Of a stretch of DNA of 64,000 nucleotides, positions 9,791 to 40,183 are shown piece after piece. The notes beneath the pieces are model-generated. The model saw only the letters and a list, made by a program, of their open reading frames with translations, was not told where the DNA came from and did not search any database. Every line of letters begins with the position of its first letter. Position 1 is the first letter of the stretch. The stretch covers positions 62,001 through 126,000 of the forward strand of contig JAAWWF010000006.1 in the NCBI GenBank assembly GCA_021404565.1. The letters run 5' to 3'. This DNA is from Roseivirga sp. Lineage in GTDB: Bacteria > Bacteroidota > Bacteroidia > Cytophagales > Cyclobacteriaceae. Made by a program: the position numbers and the translations under genes.

Positions 9791-11284
9791 ATGAAGTCCT
9801 TAAAGTTTCCCAGCCCCTTTACCGTTCTCTATATCATTATCATCATCAGTGCCATTGCAACCTGGCTCATGCCAGCAGGTTCCTATGATACACTTACCTA
9901 TGATGCTGACTCTTCCTCCTTTGTGATTCAGAGCACTGCGGGCAACAAAACCCTGCCCGGAACTCAGAGAACCCTTGACAGCCTGCAGCTTCAGATCGAA
10001 CTGGAGAAATTTCAGGCGGGCAAGTTGAGGAGACCGGTGTCCGTACCAGGTACTTATCAGGAGGTGGAGGCATCACCCCAGGGGATAAAGGCCATCATCA
10101 ACGCGCCAATAAAAGGTATTTACGACTCTATCGATATCATACTTTTTGTGCTGATTATAGGAGGTTTTATTGGCGTCTTTGCTCACTCAGGTGCCATGGA
10201 TAAAGGGGTGAATGCCCTGTCCAATACCATGAAAGGAAGAGAGAAATGGTTGATTGTTTCAGTGACCACCCTGATTGCCATTGGAGGTACCACCTTTGGT
10301 ATGCAGGAAGAAACCATCGCATTTTATCCCATTCTCGTGCCTATTTTCATCGCTGCAGGCTATGACCTGATGGTTCCGGTAGCTGCTGTTTACGGAGGCT
10401 CCTGCGTGGGCTTAATGGGTGCCCTGATCAATCCATTCAGCACCATTATTGCCTCAGATGCTGCAGGGGTCAGCTGGACGGTAGGTATGACCAGCAGAAT
10501 AGTGATGTTGGTCATCGGTCTTATTGTGATCATTTTGTTTGTAGTACGCTATGCAGAAAGGGTCAAAAAAGACCCAACAAAATCGGTATTGTATGGTAAG
10601 GATATCAAGAATCCTTTTGCAGCAAAGGAAATAGCGGTAAGTTCTGAAAAACTATCCTGGAGCACACGGCTGTTGCTTGTTCTTTTTGGCTTCACTTTCA
10701 TTATTATGATCTATGGGGTTTCTGCTATGGGCTGGTGGTTCGAAGAAATGACCGCTCTCTTTCTGGTGGCCGCTGTCGTGCTTGGGCTGATTCAGCGCTC
10801 GGGAGAAAATGCCTTTATCCAGGCTTTTATCGGTGGGGCAAAGGACCTTTTAGGTGTGGCGCTGATTATTGGAGTGGCCAGGGGTATTACGATTGTGATG
10901 AATGATGGTCAGATTTCGGGCACCGTATTGGAAGGAGCTTCTTCCATGGTAGGGGGGATCTCAGGAGCCTTATTTCTGCCGGTGCTGATGATTGTATTCT
11001 TTGTGCTTGCTTTCTTTATCAGCTCATCTTCCGGCCTGGCCCTGGTGAGTATGCCCATCATGGGGGCATTGGGTAATGTGGTAGGGGTGCCTGCCGAAGA
11101 GATAGTGAATGCTTACCTCTTCGGCTTTGGACTTATGATGTTTGTTACCCCCGGGGGCATCATCCTGCCTTCGCTGAGTATGACCAATGTACCCTATAAT
11201 GCCTGGCTGAAATTCATCTGGCCCCTGATGGCCATCCTCGCTGTAATCGGAATGGCCATTTTGATAGTGGGTAACTTGATGTAA
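9791..11284 (+). CDS. YfcC family (DcuC/ArcD-like) membrane carrier
   Basis: 497-aa integral membrane protein with about 12 helices. The N-terminus FPSPFTVLYIIIIISAIATWLMPAG and the motifs GGTTFGMQEETIAFYPILVPI and GGSCVGLMGALINPF are those of the YfcC subgroup of the C4-dicarboxylate/basic amino acid carrier superfamily. The C-terminal motif VTPGGIILPSLSMTNVPY also fits. A soluble loop of about 80 residues separates helices 1 and 2. The substrate is probably an amino acid or dicarboxylate and cannot be deduced. The gene is convergent with the ECF operon, only 6 bp apart. Confidence 0.88.
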   Translation: MKSLKFPSPFTVLYIIIIISAIATWLMPAGSYDTLTYDADSSSFVIQSTAGNKTLPGTQRTLDSLQLQIELEKFQAGKLRRPVSVPGTYQEVEASPQGIKAIINAPIKGIYDSIDIILFVLIIGGFIGVFAHSGAMDKGVNALSNTMKGREKWLIVSVTTLIAIGGTTFGMQEETIAFYPILVPIFIAAGYDLMVPVAAVYGGSCVGLMGALINPFSTIIASDAAGVSWTVGMTSRIVMLVIGLIVIILFVVRYAERVKKDPTKSVLYGKDIKNPFAAKEIAVSSEKLSWSTRLLLVLFGFTFIIMIYGVSAMGWWFEEMTALFLVAAVVLGLIQRSGENAFIQAFIGGAKDLLGVALIIGVARGITIVMNDGQISGTVLEGASSMVGGISGALFLPVLMIVFFVLAFFISSSSGLALVSMPIMGALGNVVGVPAEEIVNAYLFGFGLMMFVTPGGIILPSLSMTNVPYNAWLKFIWPLMAILAVIGMAILIVGNLM

Positions 11285-30967: not shown

Positions 30968-32998
30968 ATGAATCTCAACAAGACCATCTCAGTACTTTTT
31001 ATTGCGCTATTGTCAGGTATTATATTCACCTGTTGTGAGCCTGAGGAGACCAAAAGCACCTTCTTATTGGGACAAGGTACTGGTATTGGTGGCGTCACTC
31101 TAATGGTCAAGGACTTAGAATCAGCTATTGCTTATTATAAAGACAGCCTGGGCTTTAATATTCGCGGCACTGCAGAGGAAGGTGAATTTCCAGGGGCATT
31201 GGCCAATGGCTTCAGACTTAGCGATATGTCTTCATTTGATTTGTTGTCATTGAATGATTCCGCAGAAGAAAGCACCATTCCGGCATTTATACCATCATTT
31301 CTGGCAACTGGTGAGGGAGTTCGCCTCTTTTCATTCTCCAGTTCCTCTGTAGATTCTACTTTTGTTGGCCTTAGCGCCAGTGGCTATCAAATGGACTCAG
31401 TACGGTCATTCCGAAGCAGCGCCAAAAAACCAGACGGTTGGTCATTTGACGATGGCGCACCGTCAGCCAAAAGCCTCGATTTCGATGCAGCAGTACCACC
31501 TGCCCATCTTCCCCGGTTTATTCAGGATGTCGGGACCAACTACGCTGAAAGAGACAGTGACTGGAGAACCTATTATGTCTATAACAGAATGTTCAATAAA
31601 CATCCTAATGGTGTGGTGGGGATATCAGCCATCCGCCTGGTGGTGGAAGACCTGGAAGCAACGCAGCAGGAGTACGAAAAAATGGGTTTGGAGCTGATTG
31701 AGCAAAATGAGGCTGGGGCCAGGTATCGTATTTCCCGAAATCAGGAGCTTCATCTGGTAGCTGCCGAGAGTAATCAATCGCTGAGTGATTTTTTGACTCA
31801 GAAAGGAGAGGGAGTATTTGCTTTAAGGTTTGAAGTAGAAAACCTTGATTCGACTTATAGCTATTTCGAAAAAGAGCTCCCTGCGGCCGCTTTGACCAAA
31901 ACGGCAGACCAATTAAGTGTTCTGCCTGAATATGCCCATGGTGTACAACTTGAGTTTATCGAGGAGTCATACGACCAGGGACTTATGGTGAGGCAGCTTA
32001 GTTTTCGTGATGGGTTAGACAGCATCGCTGAAATCCATGCCGGGGAGCTATATACTAAATATTGTGCCCTGTGCCATGGGGATGACAGACAGGGCTACGC
32101 TGCGGACAATGCCCCTTCGCTACGATCCAGGTCACTCCTGGCTACCAGCAAGAATAACAATTTTATGAGGTACACCATCCAGTATGGCAGGGCCAATACT
32201 GCCATGGGTGGGTATTTAAACAGACAGGGCGGCCCTATGGAGTACATAGAGGTAGAATTACTGCTGGAGTACTTATACCAAATGGCCGAGGTAGAAGAAC
32301 CCATTGAAGTTTCGAGAGAGCCTGTTTTAGGAGATATTGAGCTGGGTGCTACATTATATGAAACAAACTGTTCGGTTTGCCATGGGGCAAACGGAGAGGG
32401 AGTTACGGCACCGGCCTTGGGTAATCCGATGTTGCTGGCCACGGCTACCGACCATTTTCTACGATATGCTATTGCCGAAGGACGGGACGGCACACCTATG
32501 ATTGCCTTTAAAGACAGCCTGAGCAGCGATAAAATTGATGCTCTGACCGCATTTTTGAGGAGTAGGGCCTCAGGCTGGGATATTCCACAGGGAGATACGG
32601 TGGCCGTACCTAAACCGGAGGAATACGTTTTGAACCCCGATGGGGAAACACCTGTTTTTGAGTTGAAAGAAGGTAAATATGTGTCTTCCGAGCAGGTAAA
32701 TCAGGCCCTGGAGGATGGCAAGAAAATGATCATCCTGGATGCCAGGTCAGAGGTGGCTTGGCGTCAGATGCATATTCCCGGAGCGATACCGGTCCCTTAT
32801 TACGAAGATCCCGAAAACTTTGTAGATGACATACCCAACGATGGCACCCAAATCGTCATTTACTGTGCCTGTCCGCATGCTGCCTCAGGGCGTGTACAAA
32901 ATACCCTGAGACGGCAAGGTTTTAAAAACACGGCCATTATCGATGAAGGGATTTTGGTTTGGGCGCAAATGGGTTTCCCGGTACGGAATGGGAGTTGA
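30968..32998 (+). CDS. Secreted fusion: two VOC domains, two cytochrome c domains, rhodanese
   Basis: 676 aa with a lipoprotein-like signal (SGIIFTCCE, Cys22/23). A first VOC/glyoxalase-like unit spans about 38-200 (GGVTLMVKDLESAIAYYKDSLGF) and a second about 215-335 (ISAIRLVVEDLEATQQEYEKMG). Two class I cytochrome c domains follow, with heme motifs CALCH at 366-370 and CSVCH at 468-472, each with a distal Met candidate (MGGYLN, MIAF). A rhodanese domain at about 565-676 has IILDARSEVAWRQMHIPGAIP and the active loop Cys633/Cys635 (YCACPHAASGR). The arrangement suggests a periplasmic redox enzyme acting on a small thiol or sulfur compound, but no substrate can be named. Monocistronic. Confidence 0.88.
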   Translation: MNLNKTISVLFIALLSGIIFTCCEPEETKSTFLLGQGTGIGGVTLMVKDLESAIAYYKDSLGFNIRGTAEEGEFPGALANGFRLSDMSSFDLLSLNDSAEESTIPAFIPSFLATGEGVRLFSFSSSSVDSTFVGLSASGYQMDSVRSFRSSAKKPDGWSFDDGAPSAKSLDFDAAVPPAHLPRFIQDVGTNYAERDSDWRTYYVYNRMFNKHPNGVVGISAIRLVVEDLEATQQEYEKMGLELIEQNEAGARYRISRNQELHLVAAESNQSLSDFLTQKGEGVFALRFEVENLDSTYSYFEKELPAAALTKTADQLSVLPEYAHGVQLEFIEESYDQGLMVRQLSFRDGLDSIAEIHAGELYTKYCALCHGDDRQGYAADNAPSLRSRSLLATSKNNNFMRYTIQYGRANTAMGGYLNRQGGPMEYIEVELLLEYLYQMAEVEEPIEVSREPVLGDIELGATLYETNCSVCHGANGEGVTAPALGNPMLLATATDHFLRYAIAEGRDGTPMIAFKDSLSSDKIDALTAFLRSRASGWDIPQGDTVAVPKPEEYVLNPDGETPVFELKEGKYVSSEQVNQALEDGKKMIILDARSEVAWRQMHIPGAIPVPYYEDPENFVDDIPNDGTQIVIYCACPHAASGRVQNTLRRQGFKNTAIIDEGILVWAQMGFPVRNGS

Positions 32999-33096: not shown

Positions 33097-33214
33097 GCAT
33101 AACGCCTGGCTAAAATGAGTATGCACCCCAGCCGCTAGAAGCGCTGAAACTTCCTGTTTGCATTATCCTTTCATATTGTGTGGCTCGCATATTCATTTTT
33201 AGCATTTGTTAGAC
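33097..33214 (-). repeat. attC-like integron recombination site
   Basis: 118-bp imperfect palindrome. Read on the minus strand it opens with GTCTAAC (fits RYYYAAC) and closes with GTTATGC (GTTRRRY with one mismatch). In between, GCTAAAAATGAATATGC pairs with GCATACTCATTTTAGC, leaving one unpaired A and one mismatch, as in folded attC sites. The stop codon TAA of the RelA/SpoT gene lies inside the first core site, the normal place of attC in a gene cassette. Confidence 0.6.
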
Positions 33215-34288
33215 TGTGTTCAACTTACTTCTCCATTCCTTATCTCTTACAACTACAAAGTCCGGAATTCTTTCTTCTTTTATCCGCGCTTCGAAGTATT
33301 TATCATTGGTCAAATCAAGAATGGCCCTGACAATCCCAACTTGAGCCCACCCATCTTGTGGTTTGGTAATTTTTCTTTTTGGAAAAGTTTCAATTTCAAT
33401 TTCTTTGAGGTGAGGCTTGACTTTTTCAAGTCCTTCAATAATATCCTTAATGGAGATTTGATCCTTGAGTAATTCGTTAAGCAAGTCTCTAGTAGTGTCA
33501 ATATTGCCAGATCGATCTGAGAAATAGAAATCTAAAAACGCTTGTAAGCTATCTAGATCTAATTTTGTATCTATTGGGAAGTGTCCTCCTTCAACCTCTG
33601 CATTTTTAATTAACGAGTTCCGATATGCAATACTCTCAGCTTTAATTTCCTCAAATTGTTCATCAGATTCTTCTAGTTTGGCGCTTATCCTAAAAAGTTT
33701 CCGTTCTAGGTGCGGAGGAATGTGAATTTTTTGCTTGTATGCAAGTTTATGTTCTATTTCAGCCCATGCATGCATTAAAATTGTTCTGACTTGAAACTCT
33801 ATCTTTAAATTCTTCAGATTCTTATAATTCGGAGTTTTTAACCAACTGTTCTTTATTTGACCTATTAAATGATGAGATCTGTAACCAAACTGGTCAGATT
33901 TTAGCAAGTCTTCTTTGTCTTGACTTTCTTTAATGTCAAACTCTCTATTTACAATTTCACAAATTCGTTCAACATCACTTTGATAAAAACAAATAATTCT
34001 GGTACCACATATATCTTCTATATCAATGAATGGATCCGTGTAATTCTTTCTATCTATTTTTTCCAAGAAAGACTCAACCTCTTTCACCCTAAAACTGATA
34101 GTTAAGTAACTTATTCCAGCCTCCTTCAAGAAGATTCCTAGAGCCTCAGAAACGTTCTTACCAAGAGAGGTATACTTTGGTATAAGGTCTGTGTATTTAT
34201 TTTCTATTTCTTGCTTTGAGTTGCTCATAATTGAGTCTAACACGTTTATATCAGGAAGTTGCTTAAAAGCTCCGGAATAACCAATCAT
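33209..34288 (-). CDS. RelA/SpoT-domain protein (putative (p)ppGpp synthetase)
   Basis: 359 aa. The synthetase-type domain lies at about 40-215: DIEDICGTRIICFYQSDV, QFGYRSHHLIGQI, and EFQVRTILMHAWAEIEHKLAYK, all hallmark motifs of small alarmone synthetases. A 140-residue C-terminal extension of unknown fold follows, making it longer than RelP/RelQ enzymes (about 210-260). No HD hydrolase or TGS/ACT domains. The gene is clearly more AT-rich than its neighbours and carries an attC-like site at its 3' end, so horizontal acquisition is likely. It may act in stress or phage response; alternatively it modifies tRNA or nucleotides like toxic SAS proteins. Confidence 0.85.
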   Translation of the reverse strand: MIGYSGAFKQLPDINVLDSIMSNSKQEIENKYTDLIPKYTSLGKNVSEALGIFLKEAGISYLTISFRVKEVESFLEKIDRKNYTDPFIDIEDICGTRIICFYQSDVERICEIVNREFDIKESQDKEDLLKSDQFGYRSHHLIGQIKNSWLKTPNYKNLKNLKIEFQVRTILMHAWAEIEHKLAYKQKIHIPPHLERKLFRISAKLEESDEQFEEIKAESIAYRNSLIKNAEVEGGHFPIDTKLDLDSLQAFLDFYFSDRSGNIDTTRDLLNELLKDQISIKDIIEGLEKVKPHLKEIEIETFPKRKITKPQDGWAQVGIVRAILDLTNDKYFEARIKEERIPDFVVVRDKEWRSKLNTV

Positions 34289-39211: not shown

Positions 39212-40183
39212 ATGGAAAGCAATGTAGAAGTTCTTAAAAGGCTTTTAGGTCAAGGAAAAATGGAAAAGGCTTTATGTATACTTTTAGACACCAAAATATC
39301 GAAAGGTGACTTTGAAGAGGTCACTGTCTTGTCAGCAGAATATAATGAGGTACTCAAACAGGTTCGACTCGGGATAATTGATACACGCGAAGAGATACTA
39401 CTAAAGAGTCGGTTAGTTAATAGGTTAATGGCTTTCTTAAATGGCTTAGAATATCCTAGGCCTGATGTCGAGTTAAGAGTTAATTATAACAGTAATAAAA
39501 GAAAGGCTTTAGTCATTGGGTGTAGTGAATATGAGCATGTCGGTAAACTTCGAAATCCAATTAATGATGCTGTCCGAATGGCTCAAAAATTAGAATGCCT
39601 AGGGTTTGAAGTCATATTAAAAAAAAATCCACAATTGAAGGACCTTAAATCATCCTTCCTTTCTTTTGAGTCTGTTTTAGGGGTTGACGATATAGGGTTA
39701 CTTTTTTTTGCCGGTCACGGTATTCAGGTTCAGGGAGAGAATTATTTAGTTCCTGTGGATGCCTTGGTTGATTCCACAAACCAAATAAGTGCTACTTGCG
39801 TAAAACTGGATGATTTGCTATTAAAAATGGGTGCAAGTGAGGCGCTAATAAAAATCATTCTCCTAGATGCATGTAGAAACAACCCCTTTGACCGAAATAT
39901 GACCCAAAGAGTCCTAAGAAGTGGCTTTGCCCCAACTAATGCGGCAGCAGGTTTTTTTATTGGGTATGCAACGGCTCCTGGCCAGGTTGCTTCTGACGGG
40001 ACCGGAAACCATGGGTTATACACAGGGAGTATTCTCGAAGAGATCGAAGGCCGTAACAATTCGATTAATCAATTATTCCAAAAAGTAAGGCAAAAAGTTA
40101 TTGATGAATCAAATGGTAGGCAAGTGCCCTGGGACTCTAGTTCATTGTTGAAAGATTTTCTTTTTATTGAAAATAATGATTAA
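39212..40183 (+). CDS. Caspase-like (C14) protease with N-terminal effector-associated domain
   Basis: 323 aa. Residues 1-85 form a helical EAD11-like adaptor (MEKALCILL ... LSAEYNEVLKQVRLGIID). The caspase domain spans about 92-320 with strand RKALVIGCSEYEHV, NDAVRMAQKLECLGFEV, catalytic His169 in FFAGHGIQVQG and catalytic Cys221 in LLDACRNNPF. Both dyad residues are intact, so a protease that cleaves after basic residues (metacaspase-type) is expected. It precedes the kinase-GTPase gene by 29 bp. The matching EAD at the C-terminus of that protein suggests direct recruitment. Probable effector of a conflict or suicide response. Very AT-rich. Confidence 0.9.
   Translation: MESNVEVLKRLLGQGKMEKALCILLDTKISKGDFEEVTVLSAEYNEVLKQVRLGIIDTREEILLKSRLVNRLMAFLNGLEYPRPDVELRVNYNSNKRKALVIGCSEYEHVGKLRNPINDAVRMAQKLECLGFEVILKKNPQLKDLKSSFLSFESVLGVDDIGLLFFAGHGIQVQGENYLVPVDALVDSTNQISATCVKLDDLLLKMGASEALIKIILLDACRNNPFDRNMTQRVLRSGFAPTNAAAGFFIGYATAPGQVASDGTGNHGLYTGSILEEIEGRNNSINQLFQKVRQKVIDESNGRQVPWDSSSLLKDFLFIENND

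Follow-up and report, generated by a model that had tools for sequence, protein, structure and literature searches.

The window, that is, the whole 64,000-nucleotide stretch of Roseivirga sp. DNA that we analysed, carries at positions 30968-32998 of the forward strand a single open reading frame of 676 amino acids with an ATG start and no internal stops. Its product (hereafter the window protein) contained, in this order, a lipoprotein-type signal, two VOC units, two CxxCH heme motifs, and a C-terminal rhodanese; all features described below lie on the same strand. The protein gave Pfam matches, each above its gathering score, to Glyoxalase_3 (PF13468; residues 43-238, E = 3.4e-9), Glyoxalase (PF00903; residues 40-143, 6.1e-9, split in two stretches), Cytochrom_C (6.9e-15, two stretches), and Rhodanese (PF00581; residues 575-667, 1.7e-14, 54.5 bits versus a gathering score of 22.2). 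In NCBIfam, 35 models were matched, and among the 25 listed, none spanned the whole protein or attained its own cut-off. The AlphaFold model of the full protein had a mean pLDDT of 81.8, with the ten-residue blocks of residues 41-360 at 76-97. The gene was present in a single copy in the 8.57-Mb genome, and the three further matches there were single domains. As a side observation, most of the same-genus genomes searched were 4-5 Mb in size, and that of another carrier (G009) was 8.2 Mb.

Conservation was assessed in a full-length alignment of 30 rows, comprising the window protein and 29 of the 33 VOC-bearing loci described below and leaving out two loci cut by contig ends and two frameshifted loci, and in a core alignment of eight rows, four of them VOC-less. 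Both heme motifs, both cysteines of the rhodanese loop, and Cys23 were retained in all 30 full-length rows, and apart from C633, C635, Cys23, and the four cysteines of the heme motifs, no cysteine was invariant. PF00581 was matched at E ≤ 1e-5 in 30/30 rows. The signal segment (residues 1-23; 30968-31036) is a hydrophobic stretch ending at the lipobox-type Cys23. The invariance of this residue (30/30) is in line with the lipoprotein signal noticed when the sequence alone was read, but the window protein's own lipobox, FTC-C, is degenerate. The protein is probably secreted and lipid-anchored at Cys23, judging from these residues.

The first c-type cytochrome domain (residues 358-445; 32039-32302) was matched by Pfam Cytochrom_C and holds the heme motif CALCH at residues 366-370 (32063-32077), with Met413 as the likely axial ligand. 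The second (residues 450-540; 32315-32587), matched by Cytochrom_C and Cytochrome_CBB3, holds CSVCH at residues 468-472 (32369-32383), with Met511 in the corresponding role. The positions of both motifs had been given correctly by the sequence-only reading. C366, C369, H370, and M413, as well as C468, C471, H472, and M511, were invariant in all 30 full-length rows and in all eight core-alignment rows. By sequence, the protein shows the class I-like c-type pattern, CxxCH with a downstream Met, twice. We infer two His/Met c-type hemes from this pattern, and electron transfer via them is plausible. The cytochrome parts resembled CcoP, QcrC, and c550-type carriers, and the protein scored 49.2 bits against the CcoP model TIGR00782, far from its cut-off of 179.95.

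The N-terminal VOC pair

VOC unit 1 (residues 34-205; 31067-31582) was identified by PF13468 and PF00903, the structure model, and a fold match. VOC unit 2 (residues 213-340; 31604-31987) was weak in Pfam and NCBIfam, its Glyoxalase_4 match at residues 224-296 reaching 20.4 bits versus a cut-off of 27, and was recognised through the fold match to the two-domain unit of HPPD. Residues 26-342 of the AlphaFold model aligned to HPPD with a Z score of 22.9 and an rmsd of 3.3 over 269 residues, and the first Foldseek match of the pair was hydroxymandelate synthase (E = 2.9e-11); identity to the aligned two-domain VOC structures was 12-15%. The two glyoxalase-like units claimed earlier thus do model as VOC folds. 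Pfam Glyoxalase_3 was found at E ≤ 1e-5 in 26 of the 30 full-length rows, and the window protein scored 26 bits against the HPPD model TIGR01263, whose cut-off is 277.

Metal-dependent VOC enzymes, HPPD included, bind their metal through two His and one Glu. In the 30 aligned rows, no position of the VOC pair held a His in 27 or more. His occurred at position 41 in 3/30 rows and at position 262 in 13/30, and it was found in 0/30 rows at residues 42 and 221, which, judging by spacing, we take to be the beta1 position bearing the metal His in VOC enzymes. This lack of a conserved VOC histidine makes metal catalysis in the pair unlikely and speaks against the substrate conversion that had been suggested for it. 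We read the VOC pair, from its conservation pattern, as a metal-free module binding a ligand or partner.

Distribution, core family, and genomic surroundings

A scan of 84,980 species returned 37 loci, a lower bound because it began from two short peptide patterns. The domain-architecture search that had been proposed as a check thus recovered VOC-cytochrome c-rhodanese proteins in 33 of the 37 loci (L041-L073), which belonged to Bacteroidota, Balneolota, and Rhodothermota. Contig ends truncated two of the 33 (L057 and L060), and two others carried apparent frameshifts, the frame being broken near 10705 inside VOC 2 in L072 and near 11235 inside cytochrome 1 in L073. In L060, from a Balneolales MAG, heme motif 1 (about 515-600) read CALRH instead of CALCH, reflecting either a lost heme 1 or a sequencing error. 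The remaining four loci (L074-L077; Wenzhouxiangellaceae and Deltaproteobacteria/Myxococcota) encoded the cytochrome-cytochrome-rhodanese core alone. Among 99 relatives, full-length orthologues were found in the window genome and four others (G001, G002, G009, and G029), and the other listed matches were partial. At E ≤ 1e-20, the class sample of 395 genomes contained one carrier (G420) apart from the window's own, and in the phylum sample, 6/395 genomes, window included, carried the gene, all six with the VOC part. Three of these six matched L045, L046, and L050 in identity and are therefore probably the same genes as in the species scan. The VOC-cytochrome-rhodanese architecture is genuine, yet rare and patchy. 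A literature search found no description of it, most subscription journals lying outside its coverage, which is consistent with the earlier remark that a protein with this domain order is not known to have been characterised. Each domain family is already known, and the combination is conserved but uncharacterised.

The cytochrome-rhodanese core also stands alone, without VOC units, in other phyla (Myxococcota and some Gammaproteobacteria). Identity over the core was 44-55% for the four VOC-less rows of the core alignment. In the Myxococcota phylum sample, 43 of 235 genomes matched the core alignment at E ≤ 1e-30, a count that includes three genomes already known from the species scan (G488-G490) and at least one false member, since the match in G724 lacks a rhodanese. 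The TGA of that match had been considered as a selenocysteine candidate and turned out to be the ordinary stop after the cytochrome gene. One Myxococcota genome, G490, showed three core-model matches (on C171, C328, and C82), one of them partial. The gammaproteobacterial class sample gave 3/274 matches, namely the genome of L074, the full-length L112, and one partial cytochrome match; L113, a cytochrome-only match, was excluded from the tree and the counts. All 31 profile-found loci (L082-L112, of which L082-L084 are L075-L077 again) encoded two CxxCH motifs and CxCP in one frame. Searching their six frames for the VOC pair gave no match at E ≤ 1e-3, and the same model recovered 30/30 VOC-bearing rows. 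Upstream of heme 1, a lipobox-like pattern was present in 18 of these VOC-less loci and absent from 13.

We constructed a maximum-likelihood tree from 65 core sequences, midpoint-rooted for drawing purposes alone. A branch with a support of 100/98, recovered in 100% of 200 bootstrap trees, separated the 33 VOC-bearing rows from the other rows. The gammaproteobacterial L074 grouped with the VOC-bearing rows at 97/90. The named row nearest to the window protein was Roseivirga sp. UBA6061. The simplest reading of these sequences is that the VOC pair was gained once, on the Bacteroidota/Balneolota/Rhodothermota branch, which falls short of proof because the root is a midpoint. As for a possible donor, a search for stand-alone VOC pairs in 247 class genomes at E ≤ 1e-8 gave the protein's own pair and four weak VOC 2-only matches (35-40 bits), and no VOC-pair-like ORF was found in 21 VOC-less loci with long flanks. 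Mean pairwise identity was 0.70, 0.72, and 0.71 for the cytochrome and rhodanese parts and 0.41 and 0.45 for the VOC units. The slow change of the former and fast change of the latter, together with the existence of VOC-less cores, point to the core as the working unit. A structure model of the core alone was of modest confidence (mean pLDDT 77.8, pTM 0.55).

The Balneolota rows were nested in a Bacteroidota cluster beside Gilvibacter and Algoriphagus (99/94), which, together with the unshared gene neighbours, suggests horizontal spread of the VOC-bearing gene between lineages. No match to the gene was obtained in 72,556 plasmid and 50,697 phage records. ORF clustering revealed no conserved neighbour genes in 43 family loci (including the duplicates L070 = L034 and L043 = L037, and with L076 and L077 lacking a focus ORF by simple gene calling) nor in 21 VOC-less loci. 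The ORF clusters common to 3-7 loci lay at varying distance and strand and, judged by eye, resembled common families (permeases, beta-lactamase-like hydrolases, and kinases). Two ORF sets, present in 12 and 5 of the 21 VOC-less loci, were rejected as partners because they were shadow frames on the strand opposite the focus gene. When the seven window genes flanking the focus were sought near the gene in five other carriers, FtsX-like permease paralogues alone matched, and the gene's neighbours differed even among carriers belonging to the window's genus. No oxidase gene was found among six scanned proteins neighbouring the focus gene. Two nearby genes may be recorded: a stand-alone RelA/SpoT-domain protein adjoins the focus gene on the opposite strand (33209-34288), and the ORF at 39212-40183 resembles a caspase-like peptidase.

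The rhodanese loop and a probable selenocysteine link

The rhodanese-fold domain (residues 566-676; 32663-32995) was matched by PF00581 and, in Foldseek, by 6mxv and 3nhv with an rmsd of 1.5-1.9 over 106-108 columns. Its active loop, Cys633-Ala-Cys635-Pro-His-Ala-Ala-Ser640 (32864-32887), was invariant in all 30 full-length rows. The C-terminal rhodanese with Cys633 and Cys635 in the active loop had been correctly recognised by the sequence-only reading. The two cysteines were also invariant in the eight core-alignment rows, and CxCP was retained in the four VOC-less rows of that alignment and in 31/31 profile-found loci. A set of 63 distinct CxCP loops from a pattern search were excluded as circular, the pattern itself requiring CxCP.

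The classical rhodanese active loop is C-x-x-G-x-R. CACPHAAS departs from this sulfurtransferase loop. It exceeds the loops of the solved rhodaneses by one residue, and their active-site Arg is replaced by an Ala (Ala639) that was invariant in 30/30 rows. The relatives' other matches comprised 26 loci, some of them cytochromes, in which 14 loops were parsable, and all 14 read CxxGxR. The Arg-less loop of the window protein, unlike those of its relatives' rhodaneses, supports a putative dithiol redox site.

Among the matches listed, the closest NCBIfam rhodanese model was NF041203. It was matched by all eight core members at 47.8-49.4 bits, far below its curated cut-off of 115, and C633-A-C635 conforms to its C-x-U (or C-x-C) motif. 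A table in a 2026 review gives NF041203 as a selenoprotein family with the motif CxU (PMC13188914), and a rhodanese form with CxU is listed in a 2022 review (PMC9312934). The CxU motif in the nearest model gives CACPHAAS the look of a redox site of the dithiol type.

We searched 188 Myxococcota genomes with NF041203 and obtained three matches at 1e-15 or better, none of them over the cut-off. Two were cytochrome-rhodanese core proteins with CxC; the loop of L160 reads CSCPT. The third, L156 (1501-1821; G681:C241:5938-6258), reads YCA-TGA-PNEAS, where an in-frame TGA takes the place of the Cys635 codon, and its N terminus is one that we take to be DedA-like. SelB was over its cut-off in 5/14 genomes, including that of L156 and excluding that of the window. 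The hairpin 3' of the TGA in L156 was mildly stable (z -1.99, with 8/200 shuffles as good). Taken together, these features make L156 a likely selenoprotein of the CxU kind, related to NF041203 though below that family's cut-off. Exchange of Cys and Sec is typical of redox-active cysteines, and the second loop cysteine is probably replaced by Sec in L156, as expected of a redox-active residue. What counts against the argument from the CxU family is that the NF041203 scores lie below the cut-off, that of the TGA-bearing match included, together with the hairpin z of -1.99.

Proposed mechanism, alternatives, and known systems

We propose that the window protein may be an extracytoplasmic redox enzyme in which the CxC rhodanese site reduces the two hemes while the VOC pair binds a ligand or partner. 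We offer this tentatively, as a reading whose chance of being right is a little short of even. The protein would be anchored outside the cytoplasm, probably via lipid. The dithiol site Cys633-x-Cys635 would take electrons from a thiol, a persulfide, or another sulfane-sulfur compound, the electrons would pass, without leaving the polypeptide, through the two His/Met c-type hemes, and the hemes would deliver them to the respiratory chain, either to a soluble cytochrome or to a terminal oxidase. The N-terminal VOC pair, HPPD-like and without the iron ligands, would serve in ligand or partner binding and not as a metalloenzyme. The domain layout, its conservation, the grouping of the VOC-bearing rows, the lack of a conserved VOC histidine, and the two-Cys loop without Arg were observed directly; what we infer is the substrate and the acceptor, the direction of the redox reaction, how the hemes are ligated, the lipidation, and the role of the VOC pair. 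The absence of conserved neighbours in the 43 and 21 loci, the lack of a SoxY match in 44 genomes (with the control genomes silent too), and the modest core model (pTM 0.55) count against this redox enzyme. A bolder form of the idea, which we consider doubtful, is that the family may be a new respiratory sulfur enzyme class, a rhodanese-derived CxC dithiol dehydrogenase that passes electrons from extracellular thiols or persulfides directly to its own hemes, is widespread as a bare core in Myxococcota, was capped once, on the Bacteroidota/Balneolota/Rhodothermota branch, by an iron-free HPPD-like substrate receptor, and then spread horizontally between lineages.

The domain could instead act as a classical sulfurtransferase, with Cys633 forming a persulfide from thiosulfate or polysulfide and the hemes taking electrons as the sulfur is oxidised, which would make the protein a one-chain thiosulfate or persulfide oxidase, loosely TsdA- or Sox-like. 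The rhodanese fold and the position of Cys633 fit this, and TsdA (4wq7, E = 1.7e-4) was among the weak diheme Foldseek matches of the core. However, the loop lacks the Arg of the CX4R form and has one residue more. In TsdA, a Cys is the axial ligand of the active-site heme, whereas in the 30 rows, no invariant Cys other than those of CxxCH was present in the cytochrome domains to act as such a ligand. SoxY gave no match in 22 carriers and 22 non-carriers (0/44 genomes), with the control genomes equally silent. We regard a sulfurtransferase of this kind as rather unlikely, if still a serious contender.

With its active-site Arg missing, the rhodanese might also be catalytically degenerate and serve in docking or sensing. 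The protein would then chiefly carry electrons at the cell surface, for instance in extracellular electron transfer or as an oxidase-feeding subunit, with the VOC and rhodanese parts as binding modules. The likeness of the cytochrome parts to CcoP, QcrC, and c550-type carriers would suit such a role. However, the VOC-bearing rows conserve the whole loop, including both Cys, Pro636, and His637, no less strictly than they do the heme ligands, and CxCP is conserved in VOC-less members of other phyla, which leaves a carrier with a degenerate rhodanese unlikely.

It is improbable that the VOC pair is a metal-dependent dioxygenase or isomerase whose reaction the hemes and rhodanese serve. The HPPD-like two-domain fold would agree with such an enzyme, as would Glu329 of VOC unit 2, which is placed like the metal Glu and is Glu in 28/30 rows. 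But the inspection of VOC metal ligands that had been suggested earlier ended with Glu329 alone kept and no conserved His, the ligand positions being assigned by sequence spacing. In addition, hhalign against the HPPD profile was weak (probability 3.7-7.2, E 0.004-0.005) and placed VOC 2 on the non-catalytic N-terminal HPPD domain, and no other part of the protein changes as fast as the VOC pair.

The sequence-only reading had also considered arsenic or selenium chemistry. The Cdc25/Acr2-type rhodanese loop is H-C-X5-R, one residue longer than the classical one, and the extra loop residue relative to the aligned solved rhodaneses would be in keeping with arsenate/selenate or phosphatase-type chemistry of that kind. 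But Tyr precedes Cys633, and the essential Arg expected at the loop end is the invariant Ala639 (30/30), so we consider this very improbable. The selenium idea is not supported as Cdc25/Acr2-type chemistry; selenium comes in only by an indirect route, through the TGA at the Cys635 position of a relative and the reviewed CxU rhodaneses. Finally, although the odd mix of domains might suggest a frame or assembly artefact uniting unrelated genes, the identical single frame across orthologues in many independent assemblies, named isolates among them, has already refuted this and leaves it virtually no chance.

Electrons from reduced sulfur enter respiration via enzymes such as SQR, Sox, TsdA, and Sor. 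If the proposed redox enzyme is real, a rhodanese covalently joined to c hemes would be a new respiratory entry point for sulfur electrons in Bacteroidota and Myxococcota, whose 22 searched carriers gave no SoxY match (with silent controls), and through it the window protein may feed electrons of sulfur compounds into respiration. The protein also offers an apparent example of a catalytic fold, the HPPD-like VOC, being put to another use without the metal. As one gene without an operon, the system is easy to test.

Several known systems share parts of this architecture. TsdA thiosulfate dehydrogenase is a diheme sulfur enzyme that gave a weak Foldseek match to part of the core, but the window protein lacks an additional Cys that could ligate a heme as in TsdA. 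The persulfide dioxygenase-rhodanese fusion (5ve3), likewise a weak Foldseek match to part of the core, ties a rhodanese to sulfur oxidation, whereas the window protein has no metallo-beta-lactamase domain in Pfam. The portion of PMC13047784 that we consulted shows rhodanese-PDO fusions, with no cytochrome-rhodanese fusion among those shown. CcoP, subunit III of cbb3, has tandem class I-like c domains, as does the window protein. HPPD and hydroxymandelate synthase have the two-VOC fold in common with it, but its VOC pair lacks the conserved iron His pair. The NF041203 family shares the rhodanese fold and the C-x-C/U loop, and the window protein differs in having hemes and VOC units outside that model and Cys instead of Sec. 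The diheme cytochrome c-rhodanese proteins that Myxococcota and some Gammaproteobacteria have without VOC units show, like the window protein, two CxxCH domains followed by a CxCP rhodanese, and differ from it by the VOC pair, which the window protein carries in addition.
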